DNA from: Chitinophagales bacterium
Lineage (GTDB): Bacteria > Bacteroidota > Bacteroidia > Chitinophagales > Saprospiraceae
Assembly: GCA_013299105.1 (NCBI GenBank)
Contig: JAAFJY010000011.1
Span: 1 to 64,000 of the forward strand
Length of the DNA: 64,000 nucleotides
Direction: 5' to 3'
Of the stretch, positions 1 to 9,712 are shown in pieces. How positions within the stretch are numbered: the first letter of the stretch is position 1; the number at the start of each line of letters is the position of its first letter. The notes under the pieces are model-generated. The model worked only from the letters and a program-made list of their open reading frames with translations. It had not been told where the DNA came from and ran no database searches. A program made the position numbers and the translations under genes.

Positions 1-115
1 GAATTGAGATTTACTTTTCCCTGTTGCGCCCTTAAACTGTCGGTCGGTTCGTATCGACTTGTAGTCAATCATGTTTTTTACGCAAAGATACTAAAAATTT
101 GATTATCAAGGGTGA

Positions 116-289
116 ACAAGTCTAATTAGTAACACAACGACTCAAAAAGGCTTGACCATAAAAGCTGTCTTAGACCAAAACACCTATGAAAAAGCTATAA
201 AGATAAGTGATGAAGAATTAGGAAGAGTAAACATTACACCTCATGAATTTCATGGAGAATGGAATTATAAAATTAAACCCAATACTTAA
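116..289 (+). pseudogene. 3' fragment of an ISAzo13-type transposase
   Basis: An open frame without its own start runs from just after a stop at 113 to a TAA at 287-289. Its translation holds TTTQKGLTIKAVLDQNTYEK and ends with HEFHGEWNYKIKP. From memory, this resembles the C-terminus of ISAzo13-family (Rhodopirellula-type DDE) transposases, which end in a similar FHG(E/D)WNY motif. Everything upstream of about position 116 is unrelated, so only some 57 codons remain. It is a dead remnant, and the family assignment rests on motif recall only. Confidence 0.55.
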
Positions 290-319
290 TTCAATAGGAT
301 GTTATTCTTGCGAAAACCC

Positions 320-622
320 TTACGACTTACGAGTGACAACTTACGACTTACGAAGTAGGGGCTCGCTGGCAAGATCTTAGGGTTCTTAGACTTCCATTTT
401 TACGGTTTGGTATTTTTGAGTTAACCTCAGCTTTGGAATGTTTTTAAAATATTGAAAAACAATTACTTGCAAACATTTTTCGCGCCCACTAAAGATGCAA
501 TAAAATTGACTGAGCTATTTTATTGGGAAAACTTGAATCGTAAAAACGATGATTTGATGAACCACAAATTTTCAATCGAAGCCCTACTTCGTAAGTCGTA
601 AGTCGTCACTCGTAAGTCGTCA
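320..622. repeat. 41-bp near-perfect inverted repeat flanking a 221-bp spacer
   Basis: The arm at 320-360 and the arm at 582-622 are reverse complements with about two mismatches. Each arm is built from repeats of ACTTACGA. The spacer (361-581) is AT-rich and shows no convincing gene. Part of the left half (about 330-425) resembles 27235-27335, sharing the string TAGGGCTCGCTGG and following blocks, so the unit belongs to a dispersed family. Together with the transposase stub just upstream it may mark an old insertion. No gene is seen between 290 and 764. Confidence 0.6.
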
Positions 623-764
623 CTCAAAAAAAGTCTTTGTGGCTTCATGAACAGAACAAACTCGTTTTGAATCACCACTTGAAACCCAATAAGAGCCTTT
701 CTTTAAAGGGTTAGTCAAAATCTGACTCACTTTCACGACTAAACCTCAAATATTGAAATACGCT

Positions 765-1391
765 CTAAAAATTAAAGCCAAAATGAAATCCCGGTTCTCC
801 AAAGATGAATTTAGACCATTTGTCATCCAACTGTTTAAATCGATCGGGCAATTTTGTGTGATAAGCACGGTGAGTAGTTGCAATTGATGGCTGGATGAAA
901 AACCTGTCTTTGAAAAGTTTGACGTGATAACCAACACGGTATGTGTTGAAAACCTGAAAACCATTGTCAATTTTTTTGCCTTTGTCGTTTACAAAATCTT
1001 GTAAGGAAGGCATTACATTAAGCTCGGCATATAAACCTTTCCACAAAAATCGTTGGTAAGCCACTGATAAGCCATATTCACGAACATACCCTGGAAATTC
1101 TTCCTCCGGCTTTCCATATGATTTGTTAAAAAGTGGGTGAATCCCATTCGGCCAGGCATATTTCCAGGTTTTTGGTTCTAATGAAATGACATCTTTTCCT
1201 GTAATCCGATAGCCTAAATTGAGTTGAGCCAAGTTGGGTGGGTTTACGGAGGATAAATTACCTAATAAAAACATAGTGCTCCCAACAAACCACCGTTTGT
1301 AAGTGCTGTCTTGTTTGGTATATTGTGCGTTGACTTGTAGCGTGCTTGCCATCATTAAGGTCAAAGTGAACAATACAATTTTCTTTTGCAT
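765..1391 (-). CDS. small secreted, probably outer-membrane beta-barrel protein (paralog 1)
   Basis: 208 residues. The start was set at the internal Met (MQKKIVLF), which begins a typical signal peptide ending in VNAQ; all three paralogs in the window share that start. The mature part is rich in alternating aromatic and polar residues and ends in FHFGFNF. A C-terminal aromatic residue is characteristic of outer-membrane barrels, so a small porin-like fold is inferred. No known family was recognised. It lies 85 bp downstream of a Crp/Fnr regulator gene on the same strand. A palindromic operator sits between them, suggesting direct control by that regulator. Confidence 0.85.
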   Translation of the reverse strand: MQKKIVLFTLTLMMASTLQVNAQYTKQDSTYKRWFVGSTMFLLGNLSSVNPPNLAQLNLGYRITGKDVISLEPKTWKYAWPNGIHPLFNKSYGKPEEEFPGYVREYGLSVAYQRFLWKGLYAELNVMPSLQDFVNDKGKKIDNGFQVFNTYRVGYHVKLFKDRFFIQPSIATTHRAYHTKLPDRFKQLDDKWSKFIFGEPGFHFGFNF

Positions 1392-1421
1392 ATCAATACA
1401 ATTAGTTGTTAAATGATACTG

Positions 1422-1466
1422 CAAAAGTAGATTGGCAATAGGCTTAAAATCGTTATCTTAAGATAA
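1422..1466 (-). promoter_or_regulatory. promoter with 14-bp palindromic operator for barrel paralog 1
   Basis: On the minus strand a perfect palindrome TTATCTTAAGATAA (1453-1466) is followed by exactly 23 bp and then TACTTTTG (1422-1429), a match to the Bacteroidota -7 box TAnnTTTG. No good -33 TTTG is present. The palindrome centre would fall near -42, the position of class II activator sites of Crp-type proteins. The same arrangement with the same spacing is found at 3924-3968 and 5181-5225. Confidence 0.6.
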
Positions 1467-1476
1467 GAAAATGAAG

Positions 1477-2058
1477 TTACTCTTTGCTCTTTTCCATAAT
1501 TCTTGCTCTCAACCTGCTCAATGATTGTGGTATCATACCTAAAAAACTTGCTAATTGGTGTTGTGGGACACGCTGAATAAGGTCCGGTCTATTTTGCAGT
1601 AAATTCAGGTATCGCTCTTCGGGTGATGCAATCTTAAACTCGTCAAAATTAAGTTGTTGCTTAGCTAAAAGTTCATTAGACAGTACTTTACACATTAGTT
1701 GAAGTTTGGGGAACTTAATGAATAATTCAACTCCAATATCTATGTGAGCAACCGTTAGTATGGTATCCTCAACACAACTTACAAAATATTCAGATGGAGT
1801 ATTATTTATTGCACAATGTGGCGTTAAACCCTCCATTTCTGTAAAAAAGGCGGTAGTTTTTTCTTCACCATCTGTGATGTAATATTTACGTATGCATCCT
1901 TTTAGAACAAAGTATTCATCCCGCGACTTCTGTCCTCTTTTGAGTAAAATAGTCCCCTTCTTCACAGATCGAAATATGTCTAACGAAAGTATTGTGTCTT
2001 TCTCATCTTCAGTTAGAGAAATGTATTTTGACATAAAGTCAAATAGTTTGTCTTGCAT
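1477..2058 (-). CDS. Crp/Fnr-family transcriptional regulator (paralog 1)
   Basis: 193 residues. The N-terminal part (about 20-130) is a cyclic-nucleotide-binding-type beta-roll: LFDFMSKYISLTEDEK, then KKGTILLKRGQ and YFVLKGCIRKYY. The C-terminal part (about 145-190) is a helix-turn-helix with QHQLASFLGMIPQSLSRLRA. This is the common Bacteroidota Crp form, and the ligand cannot be told from sequence. It precedes barrel paralog 1 on the same strand and is preceded by a promoter block shared with two other genes. A close paralog is at 5270-5851. It is likely an activator of the adjacent barrel gene (inference from the palindrome). Confidence 0.93.
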   Translation of the reverse strand: MQDKLFDFMSKYISLTEDEKDTILSLDIFRSVKKGTILLKRGQKSRDEYFVLKGCIRKYYITDGEEKTTAFFTEMEGLTPHCAINNTPSEYFVSCVEDTILTVAHIDIGVELFIKFPKLQLMCKVLSNELLAKQQLNFDEFKIASPEERYLNLLQNRPDLIQRVPQHQLASFLGMIPQSLSRLRARIMEKSKE

Positions 2059-2163
2059 TGTTTTTGTATGTTATCAAGTAACTAGCGTCTGTTGCAATCG
2101 CCACCAACAGGCCGCATATTTGTGAAGACAGCACTTTGGAAACCCTCCATTCGCGTCCATTCA

Positions 2164-2194
2164 CAAAAATAACATAAAATCCCGACTGTTCAAA
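2164..2194 (-). promoter_or_regulatory. duplicated promoter block, copy 1 (upstream of crp paralog 1)
   Basis: On the minus strand TTTG (2194-2191), 19 bp, then TATTTTTG (2171-2164), a canonical Bacteroidota -33/-7 pair. It lies within a conserved stretch of about 110 bp (about 2100-2200) that recurs upstream of crp paralog 2 and of the gene at 6042-6977. The shared stretch includes the spacer (near-identical GATTTTATG) and a leader with GAATGGAGGGTTT-like sequence. The leader to the start codon would be about 100 nt. Confidence 0.65.
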
Positions 2195-2840
2195 GGCTTC
2201 TAAGCAGACCTGCTTTATAGATATAGTGGCGTTGGAGTACGCAGCTGGGTATTGCGACAAACTACTGCTCTGCGGAGCAGTAGTTGCACCGCGACCCCCA
2301 AAGGAGTTGCGGCGCAACGGTTTAGTGCTTGACCAAGACAGGGAAATCAAAGTGCTTCAGTTCTACAACTGTACAAAGGGTTAGTAGAAGTTCAAAAGCC
2401 ATAGTTTGCACAGGGTGCGGCTCCAATCAGCTGTAAAAGTCAAGCTTTTTCACAGCTACTTGATCGGAGCTTAAACGGGCCTTGAGCAAATCCCGATTTT
2501 GCGAAAGAGCACTTTAAAGCGCGACGGATCAGAAGCCACCACTGTTTGAGCGACGAAGGAGCGAGTTTGGTGGATTCCCATTGTTCCTTGGAACTGCCCT
2601 TTCAAGCAAAATCGTGGGATTTGATCACAGCCCTTGCCTTTTTTGTGAAAACTAATGTATCAAATTTGAGTGTACTTTTTCGTTTAAAAGTACATCAAAC
2701 GGGAGCCGCACCCGTTTGCACGTCAGCCCTGCTTTTGCCGATACTTGGTTAGTAGCTCGTTTTTATATCGGCACTTTATCTCAAAATTTTATTCACATAT
2801 CTACGCTAACTCCTCATCAAATTTTTCGTTCAAAGGTTTT
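2195..2840. other. intergenic stretch without a recognisable gene
   Basis: About 650 bp in which no frame looks coding. It contains a perfect 10-bp-stem hairpin, ACTACTGCTC-TGCG-GAGCAGTAGT (2261-2284). Scattered short inverted pieces also occur, such as TTGAGTGTACTTTT/AAAAGTACATCAA near 2670-2698. It probably represents decayed mobile or plasmid DNA, but no specific element could be named. Confidence 0.4.
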
Positions 2841-3260
2841 TCATGACCCAATACGAGGCCATTTCCATGCATAACGGATGATGAGACCAAGAAGAACGAC
2901 TTCTACCACAGCGCCAAACACCATGTGCATCCAGGCTTCTCCTGCCAAATTGAACAACATGTAAGGAATATATACCGTGGCAACGATGATATTTGCCCAG
3001 CGATTTACTTTAGCTGGCAGGGCAACAGCAAGAAAAATCATCAGTGTCGGAATTGTCATTGAGACAAGCGCAGCCATCAGAAATCCTTGCGTAATATCAA
3101 ATACAAAGACCCTTCCTTTCATAATGTCAGCTATCTTACCCGGCATATACAAATGAAAATAGTCCACATAGATGTAGAGAAACATAAAGCTTGTCCATAG
3201 CATAGCAAGCTTCAGTTTCACACTGACTTTGATGTCTTCCAGTGAGTTTTGTGTGTTCAT
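2841..3260 (-). CDS. four-helix membrane protein, DUF6326-like
   Basis: 139 residues with about four hydrophobic helices: around 15-33, 55-80, 85-105 and 110-130. The motifs YVDYFHLYMPGKI and GEAWMHM are recalled from the DUF6326 family of small integral membrane proteins of unknown role. The gene starts 9 bp after the stop of barrel paralog 2 on the same strand, so the two are probably co-transcribed. It has no counterpart next to the other two barrel paralogs. Function is unknown; the family name is given from memory. Confidence 0.83.
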   Translation of the reverse strand: MNTQNSLEDIKVSVKLKLAMLWTSFMFLYIYVDYFHLYMPGKIADIMKGRVFVFDITQGFLMAALVSMTIPTLMIFLAVALPAKVNRWANIIVATVYIPYMLFNLAGEAWMHMVFGAVVEVVLLGLIIRYAWKWPRIGS

Positions 3261-3269
3261 AATGGTTGA

Positions 3270-3893
3270 CTAAAAATTAACGCCGAAATGTAGCCCAGGT
3301 TCAGGCGTATATTTTGGCCACTTGTCATCTTTTTGTTTAAAACCATCAGGCATTTCGGTGTAATAAGCACGGCCAGCAATGCCAAGTGATGGTTGGAAAA
3401 AACCCTTATCTCTAAAGAGTTTAATGTGATAACCAATTCGGTTGGTGTTGAATACAATGAACCCATTATCCACCTTATCACCGTTGTCATTCTTAAATAT
3501 TTGCACCATAGGCGTTGCATGTACTGCTACAAAGAGACCTTTCCCAAAGAACCTTTGATAAGCAAGACCAATGCCATACTCACGAATATACCCCGGAAAT
3601 TTTTCTTCTTGCTTTCCGTATGATTTGTTTAAAAATGGGTTAATGCCAAGTGGCCAGGCATGTTTCCAAGTTATTAGTTCAAGAGAAATTACATCTTTTC
3701 CTGTAATGCGATAGCCTAAATTCAGTTGAGCAAAGCCAGGGGGATTTACGGGCGCTAAATTACCCAATAAAAACACAGTACTACCAAGGAACCAGCGCTT
3801 GTAAGTGCTGTCTTGTTTGGCATATTGGGCTTTGACTTGTAGCGTGCTTGCCATCATTAACGTCAAAGTGAACAATAGAACTTTCTTTTGCAT
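3270..3893 (-). CDS. small secreted, probably outer-membrane beta-barrel protein (paralog 2)
   Basis: 207 residues. The start is at the internal Met MQKKVLLF, beginning a signal peptide that ends VKAQ. It is closely similar to paralog 1 throughout (shared KQDSTYKRWF, LNLGYRITGKDVISLE, FPGY(V/I)REYG) and ends in GLHFGVNF, the aromatic end expected of an outer-membrane barrel. Unlike paralogs 1 and 3 it has no crp gene directly upstream; a gap of about 420 bp lies there. Its promoter-operator is conserved, so a regulator encoded elsewhere in the array could control it. The DUF6326-like gene follows at 9 bp. Confidence 0.85.
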   Translation of the reverse strand: MQKKVLLFTLTLMMASTLQVKAQYAKQDSTYKRWFLGSTVFLLGNLAPVNPPGFAQLNLGYRITGKDVISLELITWKHAWPLGINPFLNKSYGKQEEKFPGYIREYGIGLAYQRFFGKGLFVAVHATPMVQIFKNDNGDKVDNGFIVFNTNRIGYHIKLFRDKGFFQPSLGIAGRAYYTEMPDGFKQKDDKWPKYTPEPGLHFGVNF

Positions 3894-3923
3894 AGCAATA
3901 CAATTAATTGTTAAACAATACTG

Positions 3924-3968
3924 CAAAAGTATATTAGCGAGCTACAATAGCTCGTTCACTTAAGTTAA
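3924..3968 (-). promoter_or_regulatory. promoter with palindromic operator for barrel paralog 2
   Basis: On the minus strand TTAACTTAAGTGAA (3955-3968), a palindrome with one mismatch, then 23 bp, then TACTTTTG (3924-3931). The layout and spacing are identical to those of paralogs 1 and 3, although the 23-bp spacer sequence is only partly conserved. That supports selection on the spacing of operator and -7 box. Confidence 0.6.
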
Positions 3969-4390
3969 GAAAAGAGACTGGTGCTTTTACAAATCGTGCG
4001 GTCCTTGATGCGCACCTACCAGATAGCTGCTGGATGTGAATACGGGGTGTTCGCTTGCTCCCGACTGAGGACCTCGGAGGCACGATGCCGGATGTGCTGC
4101 TGGTTTTATTTTGAAAATAAGGTGGAAAGGCAAGTGGTAATACAAAGTACCAGAAGGCGCTAAAGCACTAACTCAACTTACTGAATTTCAAATAAATGCA
4201 AAAATCACATCTAGCATCGTATAACCCTGGACTTGAGTACGAGAACAAAGGACTCCCGCCCATGCCTCATGCATCTATCCGGTAGTTGCATCTTTGATCA
4301 TTAGGAGGCTACTTAAAAGGAAGCCAATAACATCTTTTCCTGACTATGTGTAGAGCAATTTGGGCTTACCTCATAAATTGTCAAAGAACC
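3969..4390. other. intergenic stretch where a crp copy might have been lost
   Basis: About 420 bp without a convincing gene. In the other two units a crp gene occupies this position. No crp remnant could be read in any frame here. The only open frame (3981-4163, 60 codons, plus strand) has no recognisable features and looks like chance. Confidence 0.35.
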
Positions 4391-5014
4391 CTAAAAATTA
4401 AATCCAAAATGAAGCCCAGGTTGAATAAAGTAATTTGGCCATTCTTTTTCTACTAATTCAAAAGACTCCGGAACATTGGTTCTTACAGGCCAATAACTAC
4501 AGCCAATAGCTGGTTCAAAAAAGAACCGGTTTTTAAAAAACTTAAATTGGTAACCCAAATGGAAATTCAGATACAAGGTGTATCCATTTCCAATCTTTAC
4601 TTGATTCTCATCAATATATTTTTCAAAAGCATTCAATGCATAAACTGATGCATAAGCTCCTTTCCACCAAAAACGCTGGTATCCTAACGTAGGTGCAAGT
4701 ATGCGTGCGTGTCCAGGATAATTGAGTCCAGGTGCATCAAATGATGGCCCAAAAGGAATACCTATTGGCCAAGCATAAATGGATCTTTTAAATTCAAAGG
4801 AAACGACATCTTTAGGTGTCAGCCGATATCCAATATTTAATTGTATATACTCAGGGGGATTTGGGTCATTAGGAATGAAATTTCCTAGCATATAGAGTGA
4901 ACTTCCAACGTACCACCTTTTGTAAGTAGTGTCTTGTTTGGCATTTTGTGCTTTGACTTGTAGCGTGCTTGCCATCATTAAGGTCAAAGTGAATAACAAA
5001 AACTTCTTTTGCAT
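4391..5014 (-). CDS. small secreted, probably outer-membrane beta-barrel protein (paralog 3)
   Basis: 207 residues from the internal Met MQKKFLLF (signal peptide ending VKAQ), ending in GLHFGFNF. It is more diverged than paralogs 1 and 2 but keeps KQDTTYKRWYVGSS, LNIGYRLTPKDVVSFE and the aromatic C-terminus. The open frame extends 39 codons further upstream, but that extension is translated MITE-A sequence and is not part of the family. The MITE-A insertion lies between the promoter-operator and the start codon, so the transcript carries a palindromic leader of about 130 nt that the other two paralogs lack. Confidence 0.85.
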   Translation of the reverse strand: MQKKFLLFTLTLMMASTLQVKAQNAKQDTTYKRWYVGSSLYMLGNFIPNDPNPPEYIQLNIGYRLTPKDVVSFEFKRSIYAWPIGIPFGPSFDAPGLNYPGHARILAPTLGYQRFWWKGAYASVYALNAFEKYIDENQVKIGNGYTLYLNFHLGYQFKFFKNRFFFEPAIGCSYWPVRTNVPESFELVEKEWPNYFIQPGLHFGFNF

Positions 5015-5029
5015 ATCAATACAATTAGT

Positions 5030-5160
5030 ATTTGAGCTAAAATAAGATGGACATCTTTGTTTTTGAGGTTTAGCAAAAAAAGAACACAACTTACTTTCAT
5101 CCAGTTGCTTTTCTTTTTTCACTAAACCCAAACCTGTCCACCTTATTTTTTTACGCTCCC
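5030..5160 (-). mobile_element. MITE-A copy 1, short palindromic element inserted in a 5' leader
   Basis: 131 bp with long imperfect terminal inverted repeats: GAGCTAAAATAAGATGGACA at one end, and GGAGCGTAAAAAAATAAGGT at the other when read on the opposite strand. Flanks read TTAGT on both sides (5025-5029 and 5161-5165). The paralogous leaders at 1391-1410 and 3893-3912 run on without the insert, through ACAATTAGTTGTTAAA or a one-base variant. This is direct evidence of insertion with an apparent 5-bp target duplication. It encodes no transposase. Other copies lie near 26085, 59977 and 60826. Confidence 0.8.
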
Positions 5161-5180
5161 TTAGTTGTTAAACGATGCTG

Positions 5181-5225
5181 CAAAAGTAGATTGGTGAGCT
5201 ACGATAACTCGTTCACTTAAGTTAA
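5181..5225 (-). promoter_or_regulatory. promoter with palindromic operator for barrel paralog 3
   Basis: On the minus strand TTAACTTAAGTGAA (5212-5225), 23 bp, TACTTTTG (5181-5188). The operator is identical to that of paralog 2. It lies 44 bp downstream of the crp paralog 2 stop and upstream of the MITE-A insertion, so the insertion leaves promoter and operator intact. Confidence 0.6.
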
Positions 5226-5269
5226 GAAAAGGAATTTGGGATGGTCAAAAAGGCCAGACACAAAACTCC

Positions 5270-5851
5270 CTAACTCTTGCTCTTTTCAAAAATTCTTGCA
5301 CGCAGCCTGCTTAATGATTGAGGTTTAATCCCCAAATAGCTCGCCAATTGGTGCTGCGGAACACGCTGAATAAGGTCTGGTCTTTTTTGAATTAAGTTCA
5401 GGTAGCGTTGTTCAGGTGAAGAAGTTTTAAACTCGTCAAAATCCATCCGTTGTTTTGCCAAAAGTTCTTCGGAAAGCATTCTACACATCATTTCAAACTT
5501 TGGAAATTTATGGTTTGTTTCTATTTCCATGTCAGCATTTGAAACGGTAAGGATCGTGTCTTCTATACAACTTATGTAATATTCAGATGGTGTTTTGCTG
5601 ATTACACTAGGGGGTGTCAAAGCTTCCATTTCGGTGTAGAAAGCAGTAGTTTTTTCTTCCCCATCTAAAACATAATATGCTCGAATACAACCTTTTAGAA
5701 CAAAATAACTATCTTTCGATCTTTGCCCTTCTTTGAGTAAAGTCGTCCCTTTCTTTACCGAGCGGAATATGTCCAGAGAAACGATTGCATTCTTCTCCTC
5801 TTCGGTCAGCGAAACGTATTTTGAGATAAAGTCAAATAGGATGTTTTTCAT
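5270..5851 (-). CDS. Crp/Fnr-family transcriptional regulator (paralog 2)
   Basis: 193 residues, the same length as the copy at 1477-2058 and clearly a duplicate. Shared features are the cNMP-binding beta-roll (KKGTTLLKEGQ, YFVLKGCIRAYY) and a C-terminal HTH with QHQLASYLGIKPQSLSRLRA. Divergence is concentrated in the middle (about 85-140), around the dimer helix, so ligand or partner may differ. It precedes barrel paralog 3 with a palindromic operator between them. It has the duplicated promoter block upstream (5952-5982). Confidence 0.93.
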   Translation of the reverse strand: MKNILFDFISKYVSLTEEEKNAIVSLDIFRSVKKGTTLLKEGQRSKDSYFVLKGCIRAYYVLDGEEKTTAFYTEMEALTPPSVISKTPSEYYISCIEDTILTVSNADMEIETNHKFPKFEMMCRMLSEELLAKQRMDFDEFKTSSPEQRYLNLIQKRPDLIQRVPQHQLASYLGIKPQSLSRLRARIFEKSKS

Positions 5852-5951
5852 AGCTTTGCTGTTGTTACTGTCGGCTGCTTACACTTACCATCAACAGGCC
5901 GCACATACGTGAGGGCAGCGCATTTGCGCACCCTCAATTCACGACCGGGCA

Positions 5952-5982
5952 CAAAAATACCATAAAATTCCGACTGTTCAAA
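5952..5982 (-). promoter_or_regulatory. duplicated promoter block, copy 2 (upstream of crp paralog 2)
   Basis: On the minus strand TTTG (5982-5979), 19 bp, TATTTTTG (5959-5952). The surrounding sequence (about 5890-5995) matches copy 1 in the spacer (AACAGTCGGAATTTTATGG) and in the leader. The leader here can fold: GTGAGGG and CCCTC...CAC flank GCGCATTTGCGC at about 5910-5945. Confidence 0.65.
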
Positions 5983-6041
5983 GTTTACCAAGTAGGGATG
6001 TTTTTACAAAACTGCTTGCTGGTAGCAGTCATTTTCGTCTA

Positions 6042-6977
6042 TTACTCAATATGGTCGTGAATACCAATTTCTCTATAAAGTTTCATTGAACAATTTTTCT
6101 CTCGTTTCCAAATTCTTATTCCCTTACCTGAGCCTACACCTGAATTGTCTGAAGTATGCCACTTTACATAAAATCTTGGATACTCAATTACATAGTCATC
6201 ACATTCTTCAAAATATTCGTTGTAAATGTTTATTGTGTCGATCTTTACTGGATAGCTATTGTAGTCAATTAGATGTGTCCTGATGGATTTGATTCCAACT
6301 TTTGATGAATCGGCAAAAGGCATAAAAATAGCATCATCGGTAAAAAAATCTGCCCTTAAATTTCCATCTCGTGTTTGCACAGATTTCTCCATAAGAGTAT
6401 TCAATGCCATTAAATCAAAAGCAAGATCTTTAGCCGTATTAAGTTGTTGTGGAAACTGATAAGTCGAATGTTCTTTCGATACTTTTACTAAATGTGAACT
6501 TGGATTGTTAATGTTGTGTAAGTAGCCGAAGGATTCCGCTTTCAGTTTCAAATCTCCATTTGGTTGCAATATCCAAATATTCAAGTATTTACCGTTCAAT
6601 GTTGTTTTTTGTCCTTCAATATTTTGATAGGCTGTAGAAAATGTGCCAATTTCAACAATATTATTTTTAAGCTGCATCGTTTCTAAAATGGTTTTATTGA
6701 AAAAAGCGGTTTGCCGCCTTTTGAGTATTTCTAAATAATATTCATTTATTGCCTTTGTTCCTTTCATTGATGGTTGAAATTCAGGCATACAAATAGCATC
6801 TTTGTCAAAAAGGTTGATTATTATCTCCACTTCTTTGTCTATGAATGCTTGAGCTATTTGCTTATTTTTTTCTTCAATTTTGCTCGTATAATTGACAATT
6901 TTTTTTGATTGCCCAAAAACAGAAATGTCCACAAAGAACAAAAGTGTCAAACAGAAAACAGCTTTTAAAATTTTCAT
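6042..6977 (-). CDS. secreted protein with two NTF2-like (SnoaL/DUF4440-type) domains
   Basis: 311 residues: a signal peptide (about 1-23, ending VFGQ) followed by two NTF2-like halves. The first (about 30-160) has EEKNKQIAQAFIDKEVEII and the typical LFDKDAICMPEFQPSMKGTK pattern. The second (about 190-305) has FFTDDAIFMPFADSSKVGIK and ends in a beta-rich part with RIWKREKN. DUF4440-type domains often bind small molecules or act as simple enzymes; no substrate can be named. Its promoter block is shared with the two crp genes, so it may belong to the same duplicated module. Confidence 0.85.
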   Translation of the reverse strand: MKILKAVFCLTLLFFVDISVFGQSKKIVNYTSKIEEKNKQIAQAFIDKEVEIIINLFDKDAICMPEFQPSMKGTKAINEYYLEILKRRQTAFFNKTILETMQLKNNIVEIGTFSTAYQNIEGQKTTLNGKYLNIWILQPNGDLKLKAESFGYLHNINNPSSHLVKVSKEHSTYQFPQQLNTAKDLAFDLMALNTLMEKSVQTRDGNLRADFFTDDAIFMPFADSSKVGIKSIRTHLIDYNSYPVKIDTINIYNEYFEECDDYVIEYPRFYVKWHTSDNSGVGSGKGIRIWKREKNCSMKLYREIGIHDHIE

Positions 6978-7107
6978 TCGGTCTTAGAATTGGTTGTTAT
7001 CAATTTAAGAATTTTGATTTTGAACGTGATTTCGTTTAGGGTTGTCTCCAACAGTCCACATGTTTGCGCAGGTAGCCCATATGAAACCCTCCATTCGCAC
7101 CTAGGCA

Positions 7108-7138
7108 CAAAAATACCATAAAATCTTGACGGTTCAAA
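7108..7138 (-). promoter_or_regulatory. duplicated promoter block, copy 3 (upstream of the double NTF2-like gene)
   Basis: On the minus strand TTTG (7138-7135), 19 bp, TATTTTTG (7115-7108). The similarity to copies 1 and 2 covers about 7055-7165, including CGAATGGAGGGTTT in the leader, which is also present in copy 1. Outside the block the three downstream genes are unrelated in the case of this copy, so the block itself, not only the genes, has been copied. Confidence 0.65.
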
Positions 7139-7165
7139 GGCTTCCGATCAGGTCTGTTTTTACAA

Positions 7166-7605
7166 ATAGGGTGCTGGAGGAAGGGATTAGGGATTACTGT
7201 CAACGGGATCATATACGAACCTCACATTCCCAAAAGCAAACATGCAAAAATTGAAGAGAAACGTAACTTTCTTTGATTAGAAAATCACAAATATTGGCAT
7301 CCAATATTTTAAGCAATCAGCCTCTAGAATTGAAAGACACTTTACAATACCAAATGCTCACCTTTTATCCTTGCTTTTTATCCAACAGGATGATTTCTTC
7401 AACAACAACTTCAGTAACGAATCGCTTTACTCCTTGTTTGTCTTCGTATGAATGGGTACGGTTTTCCCGGCTAAGCGCATTTATAATTTTTTTCCATAAA
7501 ACGGCCTAATTTCGCCTCTCCCAAAATAAATTTGCCCTCTCCTGCGCTATCCAGGCGTACTGAACACCGATTTTCACAACCCAAGATAAAACACCTTCTA
7601 GCCCA
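7166..7605. other. intergenic stretch without a recognisable gene
   Basis: About 440 bp between a divergent pair (the NTF2-like gene to the left, the SUKH gene to the right). It must hold the SUKH gene promoter, but no clear TTTG/TAnnTTTG pair was found. The small open frames here have no features of real genes. Confidence 0.35.
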
Positions 7606-8673
7606 ATGAAAAGACCTGAAACAGTACATCCTGAAGCCATATTGAAATTTGATGGCTGGCACCTAGGGACATTGACGAAGAAAGGGAATCCATTAGGACC
7701 GTATACCATCTGGGATGAAGATGGTAAGCTGTTCCTGGATGGTGATTTTGACCAATCATCAAATATCAATTGGCTAAAAACCTATTATCCTGATGGGAGC
7801 ATAGGTCGTGACATCACCTACGACAAAGAATCAAAAACAACTAAGGTACAATATAGAAGTTATCACAAATCCTTCTCCAAATTGATTACTCCACTGAATA
7901 CAGGAGACAAAAGGTATGCAGAAAAGATTTACAAGGGCAAATTGTCGATAAACAATCCTGAAATTCACAATGGCTCACCCGAAGGAGTGTCTTTTTATGA
8001 TGAACCTGGTGAACTCCTTTACACGTACAATGAGGACCGCTATTCTTCCTTGATCGAAAAATACACGCAAGGCAATGTGAACGAAACCTGGCAAAAAGCA
8101 CTGGAAAGGTTGAACGATTATTGGCTTGAACTAAAAGCCTTGTTTACAAAAGATGATTACGAAATCGAAAACGATTATTTCACGGTAAGTTTTGATAAAA
8201 GTGTTACAAAGCAAGATTTAGAGCATGCAGAAGCCAGGCTTGGTGTCCAATTTCCAGTGAGCTATAAAGATTTTGTCATCAATCAAGGTTTGATCAAATT
8301 TGGGGAAACCCAAGGACGCTTTCAAAACATCGCACAAAGGATGTTGGCCCCTCATGAATTGCAAAACATCGAATACGCATTGGACCCCGATGAAAAAGCT
8401 TACTTCGAAGCTGATTTCACTTTGCCAAAAGAGACAAGAAAAAAAGTAATTTGCTTTTTTCAAGACCAGACTGATATCCAGTATGAAGGATGGAGCGTAT
8501 TTGATTTTACCCTACAAGATGGGGTTGAAGTTAATGTAGTGTTTGATGTTGGCTGCAAAAATATTGATGCCTGGGAAAGGAATATCGGCAAAGAGGTCCG
8601 CAAGGATTTGAATACGATGGACCATTTTATCTCCACTTATGTCAATCGTTTGATCACCCAAAGGGAGCCTTAA
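7606..8673 (+). CDS. SMI1/KNR4 (SUKH) domain protein with N-terminal MORN-like part
   Basis: 355 residues, no signal peptide. The first part (about 15-75) has GTLTKKGNPLGPYTIWDEDG and YYPDGSIGRDITYD, resembling the MORN/YwqK-like antitoxin repeats. The C-terminal half (about 185-345) has VTKQDLEHAEARLGVQFPVS and YKDFVINQGL, the hallmark start of the SMI1/KNR4 (SUKH) fold. SUKH proteins are frequently immunity proteins for polymorphic toxins. No toxin gene is adjacent, so it is an orphan here. Fold assignment is good; the immunity role is inference. Confidence 0.88.
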   Translation: MKRPETVHPEAILKFDGWHLGTLTKKGNPLGPYTIWDEDGKLFLDGDFDQSSNINWLKTYYPDGSIGRDITYDKESKTTKVQYRSYHKSFSKLITPLNTGDKRYAEKIYKGKLSINNPEIHNGSPEGVSFYDEPGELLYTYNEDRYSSLIEKYTQGNVNETWQKALERLNDYWLELKALFTKDDYEIENDYFTVSFDKSVTKQDLEHAEARLGVQFPVSYKDFVINQGLIKFGETQGRFQNIAQRMLAPHELQNIEYALDPDEKAYFEADFTLPKETRKKVICFFQDQTDIQYEGWSVFDFTLQDGVEVNVVFDVGCKNIDAWERNIGKEVRKDLNTMDHFISTYVNRLITQREP

Positions 8674-8804
8674 TTGGGTGTTTGTCCTTTTTGAGTAAAA
8701 GCCTGTAATTTGCTCAAGGTCTGCCGTCCGATCTACAAGCCAATTTCAGTGACGCAATACAGTCTGGTGTTTTATGGTCCGCAGGGTGTTTTTAAACAGT
8801 TTCT

Positions 8805-8812
8805 TACCTTTG
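8805..8812 (+). promoter_or_regulatory. putative -7 box of the acyltransferase gene
   Basis: TACCTTTG matches TAnnTTTG and lies 22 bp before the ATG. A poor TTTT-type -33 region is about 20 bp upstream. The predicted leader is short, about 15 nt. Confidence 0.45.
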
Positions 8813-8833
8813 CCCTAAAATCAGCCACCAATC

Positions 8834-9712
8834 ATGAGTCGGATATTGTACTACCTCTTTTTAAAACCCCTTTCTCTGCTGCCTTTATCGGTTTTATACG
8901 TTTTTTCCGACTTCATCGCTTTCACGGTTTTCCGCCTGATCGGCTACCGCCGAAAAGTAGTGATGACCAACCTCCGCAACTCCTTTCCTGAGCGGCCAGA
9001 AGCTGAACTGAAGGGCATGGCCCGCACTTTTTACCGTTTTTTTTGCGATCAAATGATCGAGACCCTGCGCTTGTTTTCGATGCCCGCTGAAGAATTGAAA
9101 CGCCGCTGCTTGATCGTCAACCAAGACTTGTTTCAGCGCTTGGCTGATGAGGGTCGCAGCGTAATCATCACCGCTGGGCACCACAACAACTGGGAAATGG
9201 CCGCCATGTCGGTGGGTTTCAGCATTCCACACCAATCTTCAGCCATTTTTCACCCTTTGAAAGATGCTTTTCTCAATCAGAAACTCTACGATTCACGTTC
9301 TCGCTTTGGCCTGACACTCGTTTCGACCAAAGCAGTGAAGGAGTATTTTTCTCAAAACAGAGAATTGATCGCGGTTCTTTTTGCTACCGACCAAGCCCCC
9401 TCCAATCCTTACAACGCCTACTGGACCACCTTCCTAAACCAGGACACCCCCGTTTTTTGGGGCACCGAAATTTTTGCCAAACGCAATAACCTGGCAGTAG
9501 TGTATGGCAAAATCAGCCGCCTGAGTCGGGGTCACTATGTCATGAGTTTTGAACTGATCACCGACAACGCCAAAGACGAGCCACGGGGGGCCATCACCGA
9601 AAAGCATACCCGCGCCCTGGAACGCGCCATCCTGGAAGCACCCGAATACTGGCTGTGGAGCCACCGTCGCTGGAAAAGGCAAAGGCCTGCGGATTTAATT
9701 GCGAATAATTAA
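8834..9712 (+). CDS. LpxL/HtrB-type lysophospholipid or lipid A acyltransferase
   Basis: 292 residues. An N-terminal membrane anchor (about 5-35) is followed by VVMTNLRNSFPE, typical of the bacterial lipid A acyltransferase family. The catalytic H-x4-D/E motif is seen as GHHNNWE (His116, Glu121). RRWKRQRP near the C-terminus matches the family end. The enzyme would transfer a secondary acyl chain to lipid A, or to a related lipid such as an ornithine lipid, at the inner face of the inner membrane. The exact acceptor is not deducible. An AraC-type regulator follows 15 bp downstream. Confidence 0.93.
   Translation: MSRILYYLFLKPLSLLPLSVLYVFSDFIAFTVFRLIGYRRKVVMTNLRNSFPERPEAELKGMARTFYRFFCDQMIETLRLFSMPAEELKRRCLIVNQDLFQRLADEGRSVIITAGHHNNWEMAAMSVGFSIPHQSSAIFHPLKDAFLNQKLYDSRSRFGLTLVSTKAVKEYFSQNRELIAVLFATDQAPSNPYNAYWTTFLNQDTPVFWGTEIFAKRNNLAVVYGKISRLSRGHYVMSFELITDNAKDEPRGAITEKHTRALERAILEAPEYWLWSHRRWKRQRPADLIANN

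Follow-up and report, generated by a model that had tools for sequence, protein, structure and literature searches.

Do the Crp/Fnr-family regulators encoded beside three paralogous genes for secreted, barrel-like proteins control these neighbours? The question is raised by a stretch of 64,000 nucleotides (hereafter the window) from a Chitinophagales bacterium (Saprospiraceae; GenBank assembly GCA_013299105.1, contig JAAFJY010000011.1, positions 1 to 64,000), in which each barrel gene is preceded by a palindrome-like site at a constant distance from a -7 promoter box. An earlier note on this DNA had interpreted the arrangement as activation of the barrels by the Crp/Fnr paralogs bound near -42, and our sequence analysis supports this interpretation, since the crp neighbourhood is conserved and the predicted fold is a barrel. 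We consider it probable, though well short of certain, that a dedicated Crp/Fnr one-component activator positioned near -42 (class II) switches on the neighbouring barrel genes. The features concerned are the following:

765-1391, minus strand: barrel gene P0001 (208 amino acids), type A, predicted secreted 8-stranded outer-membrane barrel
1477-2058, minus strand: crp gene P0004, Crp/Fnr-family regulator (193 amino acids), recognition helix MIPQSLSR (PF00027, 2.1e-6)
2841-3260, minus strand: P0006, DUF6326 membrane protein (PF19851, 5.5e-11), a frequent follower of the type A barrel
3270-3893, minus strand: barrel gene P0002 (207 amino acids), type A, 70% identical to P0001
4391-5014, minus strand: barrel gene P0003 (207 amino acids), type B, 48% identical to P0001
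5270-5851, minus strand: crp gene P0005, Crp/Fnr-family regulator (193 amino acids), recognition helix IKPQSLSR (PF00027, 8e-9)
1453-1466, minus strand: operator of P0001 (site 1), TTATCTTAAGATAA, a perfect palindrome
3955-3968, minus strand: operator of P0002 (site 2), TTAACTTAAGTGAA, the family consensus
5212-5225, minus strand: operator of P0003 (site 3), TTAACTTAAGTGAA
1422-1429, minus strand: -7 box of P0001, TACTTTTG
3924-3931, minus strand: -7 box of P0002, TACTTTTG
5181-5188, minus strand: -7 box of P0003, TACTTTTG

Candidate operators, spacing and the crp-barrel cassette

One cassette of the window is complete (P0005-P0003-P0002-P0006); the other crp-barrel pair, P0004-P0001, has diverged and carries a variant operator. 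The two regulators are 72% identical. As had been noted, two of the three barrels stand directly behind a crp gene on the same strand (P0001 after P0004, P0003 after P0005); P0002 comes after P0003. A fourth crp-barrel pair, on another contig of the same genome (G000:C1), has TTAACCCAAGTCAA followed after 23 base pairs (bp) by TAACTTTG. The distance between each 14-bp site and TACTTTTG in the window is exactly 23 bp, and the coordinates had been correctly located (wholes at 1422-1466, 3924-3968, and 5181-5225). The description of the sites as palindromes is accurate for site 1 and too generous for sites 2 and 3, each of which has one mismatched pair. In all 77 contigs of the genome (7.67 Mb), the pattern TTANCTTAAG-N27..36-TANNTTTG has three matches, exactly the window sites, and its reversed control one. 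The spacers had been said simply to differ, which is not the case: the three promoter regions belong to a single repeat family (73% and 89% over 71 nt) and, being repeats of one another, leave the fixed spacing inside the window explicable by duplication alone. A recent duplication of the crp-barrel unit would then account for the alike sites, with a functionless palindrome, and the nearly identical signal-peptide parts of the barrels also favour it.

Related genomes bear on this alternative. A scan of named genomes confirmed 357 barrel relatives, and the locus counts given here rest on the best 80 of these 357, which lean to close relatives of P0001 and belong to Cytophagales, Chitinophagales, Saprospirales, Flavobacteriales, and other orders. 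A Crp is encoded within 3 kb in 74 of these 80 named loci, in 10 of 13 loci from relatives, and in 24 of 30 from a class-wide search, the last carrying only ~1.5 kb of flank. On the same strand, the order is crp - type B (P0003-like) - type A (P0001/2-like) in 41 of the 80 loci and crp - type A in 33, the other 6 lacking crp; DUF6326 (P0006) relatives occur in 32 loci and represent 29 of the 33 open reading frames (ORFs) directly after a barrel. At E ≤0.001, the barrel was found in 14 of 100 genomes searched, including the window's own (the two weakest matches, 1.7e-6 and 4.2e-4, are doubtful), and in 0 of 4 other genomes of the window's genus, and of the 395 genomes covered by the class-wide search, made with a distant barrel member, 25 have it at E ≤1e-8.

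We defined the operator core as TTNAC-N4-GTNAA and sought it within 250 bp of all starts with enough upstream DNA. It was present at 112 of 129 barrel starts, at none of 75 crp starts, and before 4 of 534 other ORFs. Combined with NNNNTTTG at 21-24 bp, it was retained at 104, 0, and 3 of them, respectively, and combined with the NANNTTTG box at 22-23 bp at 97, 0, and 3. The spacing between core and NNNNTTTG in the 112 barrel starts is 23 bp in 100 and 22 bp in 4, with a looser box at 22/23 bp in 6 and none in 2. In Bacteroidota genomes, then, crp and palindrome both accompany the barrel, a co-occurrence that the earlier note had proposed to check. When the 114 promoters were reduced to 62 whose spacers are dissimilar, the 14 operator positions carried 1.56-2.0 bits of information and spacer positions 17-34 carried 0.05-0.85 bits; the consensus consists of a near-invariant TTAACTTAAGTGAACG, a weakly conserved spacer, and TACTTTTGC. 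This consensus operator is asymmetric and of fixed orientation, with a distal half that is usually TTAAC (third base A in 93%, C in 6%) and a proximal half TTCAC. Because related genomes keep site and spacing despite dissimilar spacers, duplication is not the whole story of the fixed spacing; the co-occurrence counts, including the near absence of the core from crp starts and other ORFs, and the 62-promoter profile lead us to reject it as a full explanation, and that it alone produced the pattern is hardly credible. Autoregulation of crp via the same operator was likewise not seen, the core being absent from the 75 crp starts.

Site 1 adds a further argument against duplication. Its bases 4 and 11 deviate from the family consensus, a change symmetric in both half-sites, as expected of a homodimer operator, and locus L210 has the same 14 bases ahead of a barrel, 23 bp before TATTTTTG (a TAnnTTTG box). 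The associated regulators also differ: P0004 has Ile just before PQSLSR, a position at which Lys, Thr, or Gln is usual in other barrel-linked Crps, and the Crp of L210 has PVSLSR in place of PQSLSR. A private operator for the P0004-P0001 pair is a plausible reading.

The pairing, the site, and the spacing, like the predicted fold and the residue-base correspondence described below, are read from the sequence itself; from them we infer binding, activation, a signal, and a function of the barrels in the envelope. A Crp/Fnr-family homodimer would bind TTAAC-N4-GTGAA centred ~42 bp upstream of the transcription start, a class II position from which Crp could touch RNA polymerase, and detection of a signal by its sensor domain would switch on the neighbouring gene, or genes, encoding small outer-membrane barrels of eight strands. 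The cassette is crp - type B - type A or crp - type A, sometimes then the DUF6326 membrane protein, with each barrel usually carrying its own putative operator and -7 box and crp itself having no operator.

Recognition helix and operator base

Another Crp/Fnr paralogue, or a global regulator, might read these sites while the neighbouring Crp reads something else, a possibility favoured by the operator geometry being common to other paralogues. In that respect, only 2 sites within 2 mismatches of TTAACTTAAGTGAACG exist in the genome, both in the window (4 in the reversed control), so that a wide regulon of this exact site is not seen. A second argument comes from the recognition helix. Gln178 (Q178) of P0005 aligns with the specificity Glu of the FNR recognition helix (ETISR) and corresponds to position 181 of CRP. 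We tabulated this residue against the third base of the promoter-proximal half-site in 108 pairs, comprising barrel-linked Crps and Crps beside quite different genes; left out were Crps without a motif within 350 bp (66 of the 90 non-barrel Crps), those whose last 120 residues were already counted, and those whose helix escaped the pattern. Gln occurs with GTGAA in 78 of 78 pairs (76 of them barrel-linked), Glu with GTCAA in 21 of 24 (GTGAA in 2, GTTAA in 1), Pro with GTTAA in 3 of 5 (GTGAA in 2), and the single Val with GTAAA. Among the Glu-type Crps, the next residue shows a correspondence with the distal half: all 7 with Thr there have G as its third base, against 1 of 17 with Ser.

For phylogenetic comparison, a tree was built with two residues masked, from 22 Gln-G barrel rows drawn at random and other rows, with L026, L031, L150, and L157, barrel-adjacent pairs whose operator is not next to crp, added by hand. 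The combination of Gln and G occurs in the barrel branch and a second time in a well-supported non-barrel pair elsewhere on the tree (L229 and L231), a Glu-C branch (support 89) lying between the two. In 200 pairings, the base changes in the same direction in 1.6, in the opposite direction in 0.0, and not at all in 0.4. Helix residue and operator base correspond across these Crp-operator pairs and vary together between neighbours, which argues against a reader other than the neighbour; we consider that alternative quite improbable.

The Glu and Pro pairs agree with the published CRP/FNR code, where Ser/Pro180 corresponds to TTGACnnnnGTCAA and a change of Glu181 to Pro to GTAACnnnnGTTAC (PMC1274295). 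The HcpR1, HcpR2, and NssR regulators described there are similar in being Crp/Fnr proteins with TTGACnnnnGTCAA, GTAACnnnnGTTAC, or TTAACnnnnGTTAA sites depending on residues 180 and 181, and differ in their targets, nitrogen-oxide and nitrosative-stress genes there versus outer-membrane barrels here (PMC1274295). Bacteroidota genomes can hold dozens of Crp/Fnr paralogues, and our searches revealed no described targets for them. For one such paralogue, the cassette supplies a likely target and a near-invariant candidate operator; it also indicates where this operator sits on the unusual promoter of Bacteroidota and which residue confers specificity, and it may help to guess the operators of other paralogues.

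Promoter position, regulators and predicted fold

Classical class II CRP/FNR sites are centred at -41.5. In a published map of transcription starts in Flavobacterium psychrophilum, TAnnTTTG occupies -12 to -5 (PMC9723704). Transferred to the present promoters, this box position and the 23-bp spacing would put the operator centre at ~-42.5, one base off, in keeping with the location near -42 proposed for the Crp/Fnr proteins. FNR shares the operator geometry (TTGAT-N4-ATCAA versus TTNAC-N4-GTNAA here), and class II activation shares the fixed phase with the core promoter and would share the centre near -42; by contrast, the promoter here has a Bacteroidota sigma-A -7 box, TAnnTTTG, instead of -10/-35 elements, and the regulon is local.

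A repressive role of the neighbouring Crp, which would block RNA polymerase until a signal releases the barrels, has points in its favour, as the site overlaps the region that polymerase occupies and Crp/Fnr proteins can act both ways. The Bacteroidota promoter consensus also has a -33 part, and the lack of a good -33 box had been taken as an argument for activation. It turns out to be uninformative: at the spacings tried, TTTG occurs in 0 of 70 barrel promoters versus 2 of 82 candidate promoters of other genes in these loci, and in 1 of 16 cases before crp. A repressor site could slide, whereas the spacing found is strict, and class II activation typically shows such rigid phasing with the -7 box. 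We therefore regard repression as unlikely, if the least unlikely of the alternatives to activation by the neighbouring Crp.

The same architecture extends beyond the barrels. Among 90 non-barrel Crps, 24 carry the motif within 350 bp, 22-23 bp away from NNNNTTTG (mean 0.04 and maximum 1 in dinucleotide shuffles), and in the window's own genome 6 matches occur in 5 of 23 paralogue loci (shuffled mean 0.14, largest 2). The barrel cassette is accordingly one instance, and a very well conserved one, of a more general arrangement. Several of the non-barrel targets, judged by eye, are small secreted barrel-like or membrane proteins.

A number of observations weigh against activation by a dedicated neighbouring Crp. 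Six of the 80 named loci have no Crp within 3 kb, 17 of the 129 barrel starts have no core within 250 bp, and site 1 fits the consensus at only 6 of 8 core bases. Five pairs depart from the residue-base correspondence (L071 and L142, Glu with GTGAA; L097, Glu with GTTAA; L172 and L244, Pro with GTGAA), and, as the three Glu exceptions sit inside the Gln-type barrel branch, the base is not determined by residue 178 alone. The independent contrasts number 2 on well-supported branches and 5 on the best tree, none of them opposed and some showing no difference, which is too few for significance. NssR, with Gln181, has a symmetric TTAACnnnnGTTAA site with TTAAC in both halves (PMC1274295), different from the asymmetric TTAAC/TTCAC halves found here with the same residue, so that the TTCAC proximal half was not foretold by it. 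Since the -33 box is rare before other genes too, its absence does not discriminate activation from repression. The 66 motif-less Crps are a majority of the non-barrel set, whose pairs moreover show 22 bp in 20 of 24 and 23 bp in 4 of 24, whereas barrel sites, the odd ones here, mostly have 23. Finally, in L138 (around 3962-4142), a crp broken into fragments in different frames lies beside a barrel pair, and two operators there read GTCAA with 22-bp spacing, not GTGAA with 23.

P0005 and P0004 match the cyclic-nucleotide-binding-like sensor domain PF00027 with 35.8 and 28.0 bits (cut-off 27.5). The C-terminal Crp-type helix-turn-helix PF13545 reaches 13.4 and 15.0 bits, under its cut-off of 27, and the helix aligns with FNR ETISR and with 3dn7, to which P0005 is similar at 6.2e-25. 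P0005 has 26 matches in this genome, itself included. FNR senses oxygen through an N-terminal Fe-S cysteine cluster; no cluster of this type was found in P0004 and P0005, which have no cysteine before C55. CRP binds cyclic AMP (cAMP) through a phosphate-cassette motif that can be expressed as a PROSITE-like pattern, and this pattern occurs in 0 of the 108 Crps, which speaks against cAMP as a ligand. The regulators thus differ from both FNR and CRP. Two sensor-domain cysteines (C55 and C95) are nearly constant in barrel-linked Crps and rarer in the others (KGC-type in 75 of 84, CxE[DEN] in 79 of 84, versus 6 and 9 of 24 others), which suggests a thiol-based signal.

Outer-membrane barrels of eight strands are marked by a signal peptide, eight antiparallel strands, and a C-terminal aromatic residue. 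The structure prediction that the earlier note had called for gave such a barrel for P0001, OmpA/OprF-like, with a helix at 2-23 followed by eight long strands and ending in F208, all three features being present. The suggested uptake or export of a compound found no supporting evidence, an 8-stranded OmpA-like barrel not being an obvious channel. No Pfam or NCBIfam family reaches its cut-off with the barrel; a sequence search of solved structures returned five matches, at E 0.93 or worse, and identity to the OmpA/OprF N-terminal barrel and other small outer-membrane barrels is ≤15% among the 50 matches listed. OmpA proteins have a peptidoglycan-binding C-terminal domain. The window barrel is without it: P0001 ends with the barrel and has no Pfam match. 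The family, widespread and below every Pfam and NCBIfam cut-off, is defined here by the cassette. Two of its members (L028 and L029) have no detected Crp in the ~4.8-5 kb upstream and no recognisable operator in the 230 bp examined, so the barrel can exist outside the Crp regulon. Our literature search found nothing on the Crp/Fnr-barrel pairing or DUF6326, which is weak evidence of absence given that the slash term is unsearchable and subscription journals are mostly outside its reach; the Crp/Fnr - outer-membrane-barrel regulon and the barrel family are apparently undescribed, with a mechanism of known kind. The signal peptides of the three window barrels (1391-1323, 3893-3825, and 5014-4946, minus strand) have 20 of 23 residues invariant versus 48-70% overall identity, and signal peptides and promoters resemble one another much more closely than the mature parts do, a pattern like that left by exchange through gene conversion.

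Possible spread of the cassette, and dispersed repeats

In a Crp tree of 72 loci (8 of 69 branches well supported), taxonomic order requires 22 changes versus 23.2 for shuffled labels (55 of 200 shuffles as low), that is, no excess clustering; family requires 33 versus 37.5 (2 of 200 as low) and is more clustered than in most shuffles. At most, this hints at horizontal transfer of the cassette. A phylum-wide rule for Bacteroidota can be imagined, with many of the expanded Crp/Fnr paralogues being private activators of one, often envelope-related neighbour and acting at ~-42 in place of the -33 element, operators predictable from residues CRP 181/182, redox or envelope sensing by C55/C95 in the barrel branch, and cassette transfer between orders; we regard it as a tentative and rather doubtful generalisation.

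The promoters of the window also lie among repeated sequences:

5030-5163: dispersed repeat of ~134 bp, resembling a miniature inverted-repeat transposable element (MITE), within the 5' leader of P0003 (after the promoter and before the ATG)
2092-2222, minus strand: promoter-bearing dispersed repeat upstream of P0004, with TTTG at 2194-2191, 19 bp, and TATTTTTG at 2171-2164
5879-6010, minus strand: promoter-bearing dispersed repeat upstream of P0005, with TTTG at 5982-5979, 19 bp, and TATTTTTG at 5959-5952
7036-7166: the same ~120-bp repeat, upstream of a DUF4440 gene

The repeat at 5030-5163 has at least 41 near full-length copies in its own genome, its own included, at 89-100% (40 of 450 first-look candidates were scored), and, by eye, imperfect terminal inverted repeats; it may be a high-copy MITE. 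Owing to it, the operator centre of P0003 lies ~204 bp from the ATG; in the 112 core-bearing barrel starts of the named loci, with a single exception, this distance is 56-74 bp. An Rfam scan of window positions 1-9000 gave no match at E up to 1, and for hairpins in crp-type leaders the single-sequence folds disagree. TTTG-N19-TATTTTTG stands before both crp genes of the window; it agrees with the Bacteroidota promoter consensus and is carried on the minus strand, with a GC-rich leader, by the ~120-bp repeat. This repeat has 12 matches in the genome, window copies included, and by eye precedes unrelated genes (acetyltransferase-like, nucleotidyltransferase-like, another crp, and an SDR), with some copies in series at distances of 1.2-1.6 kb, and may represent a mobile promoter or a cassette-array element.

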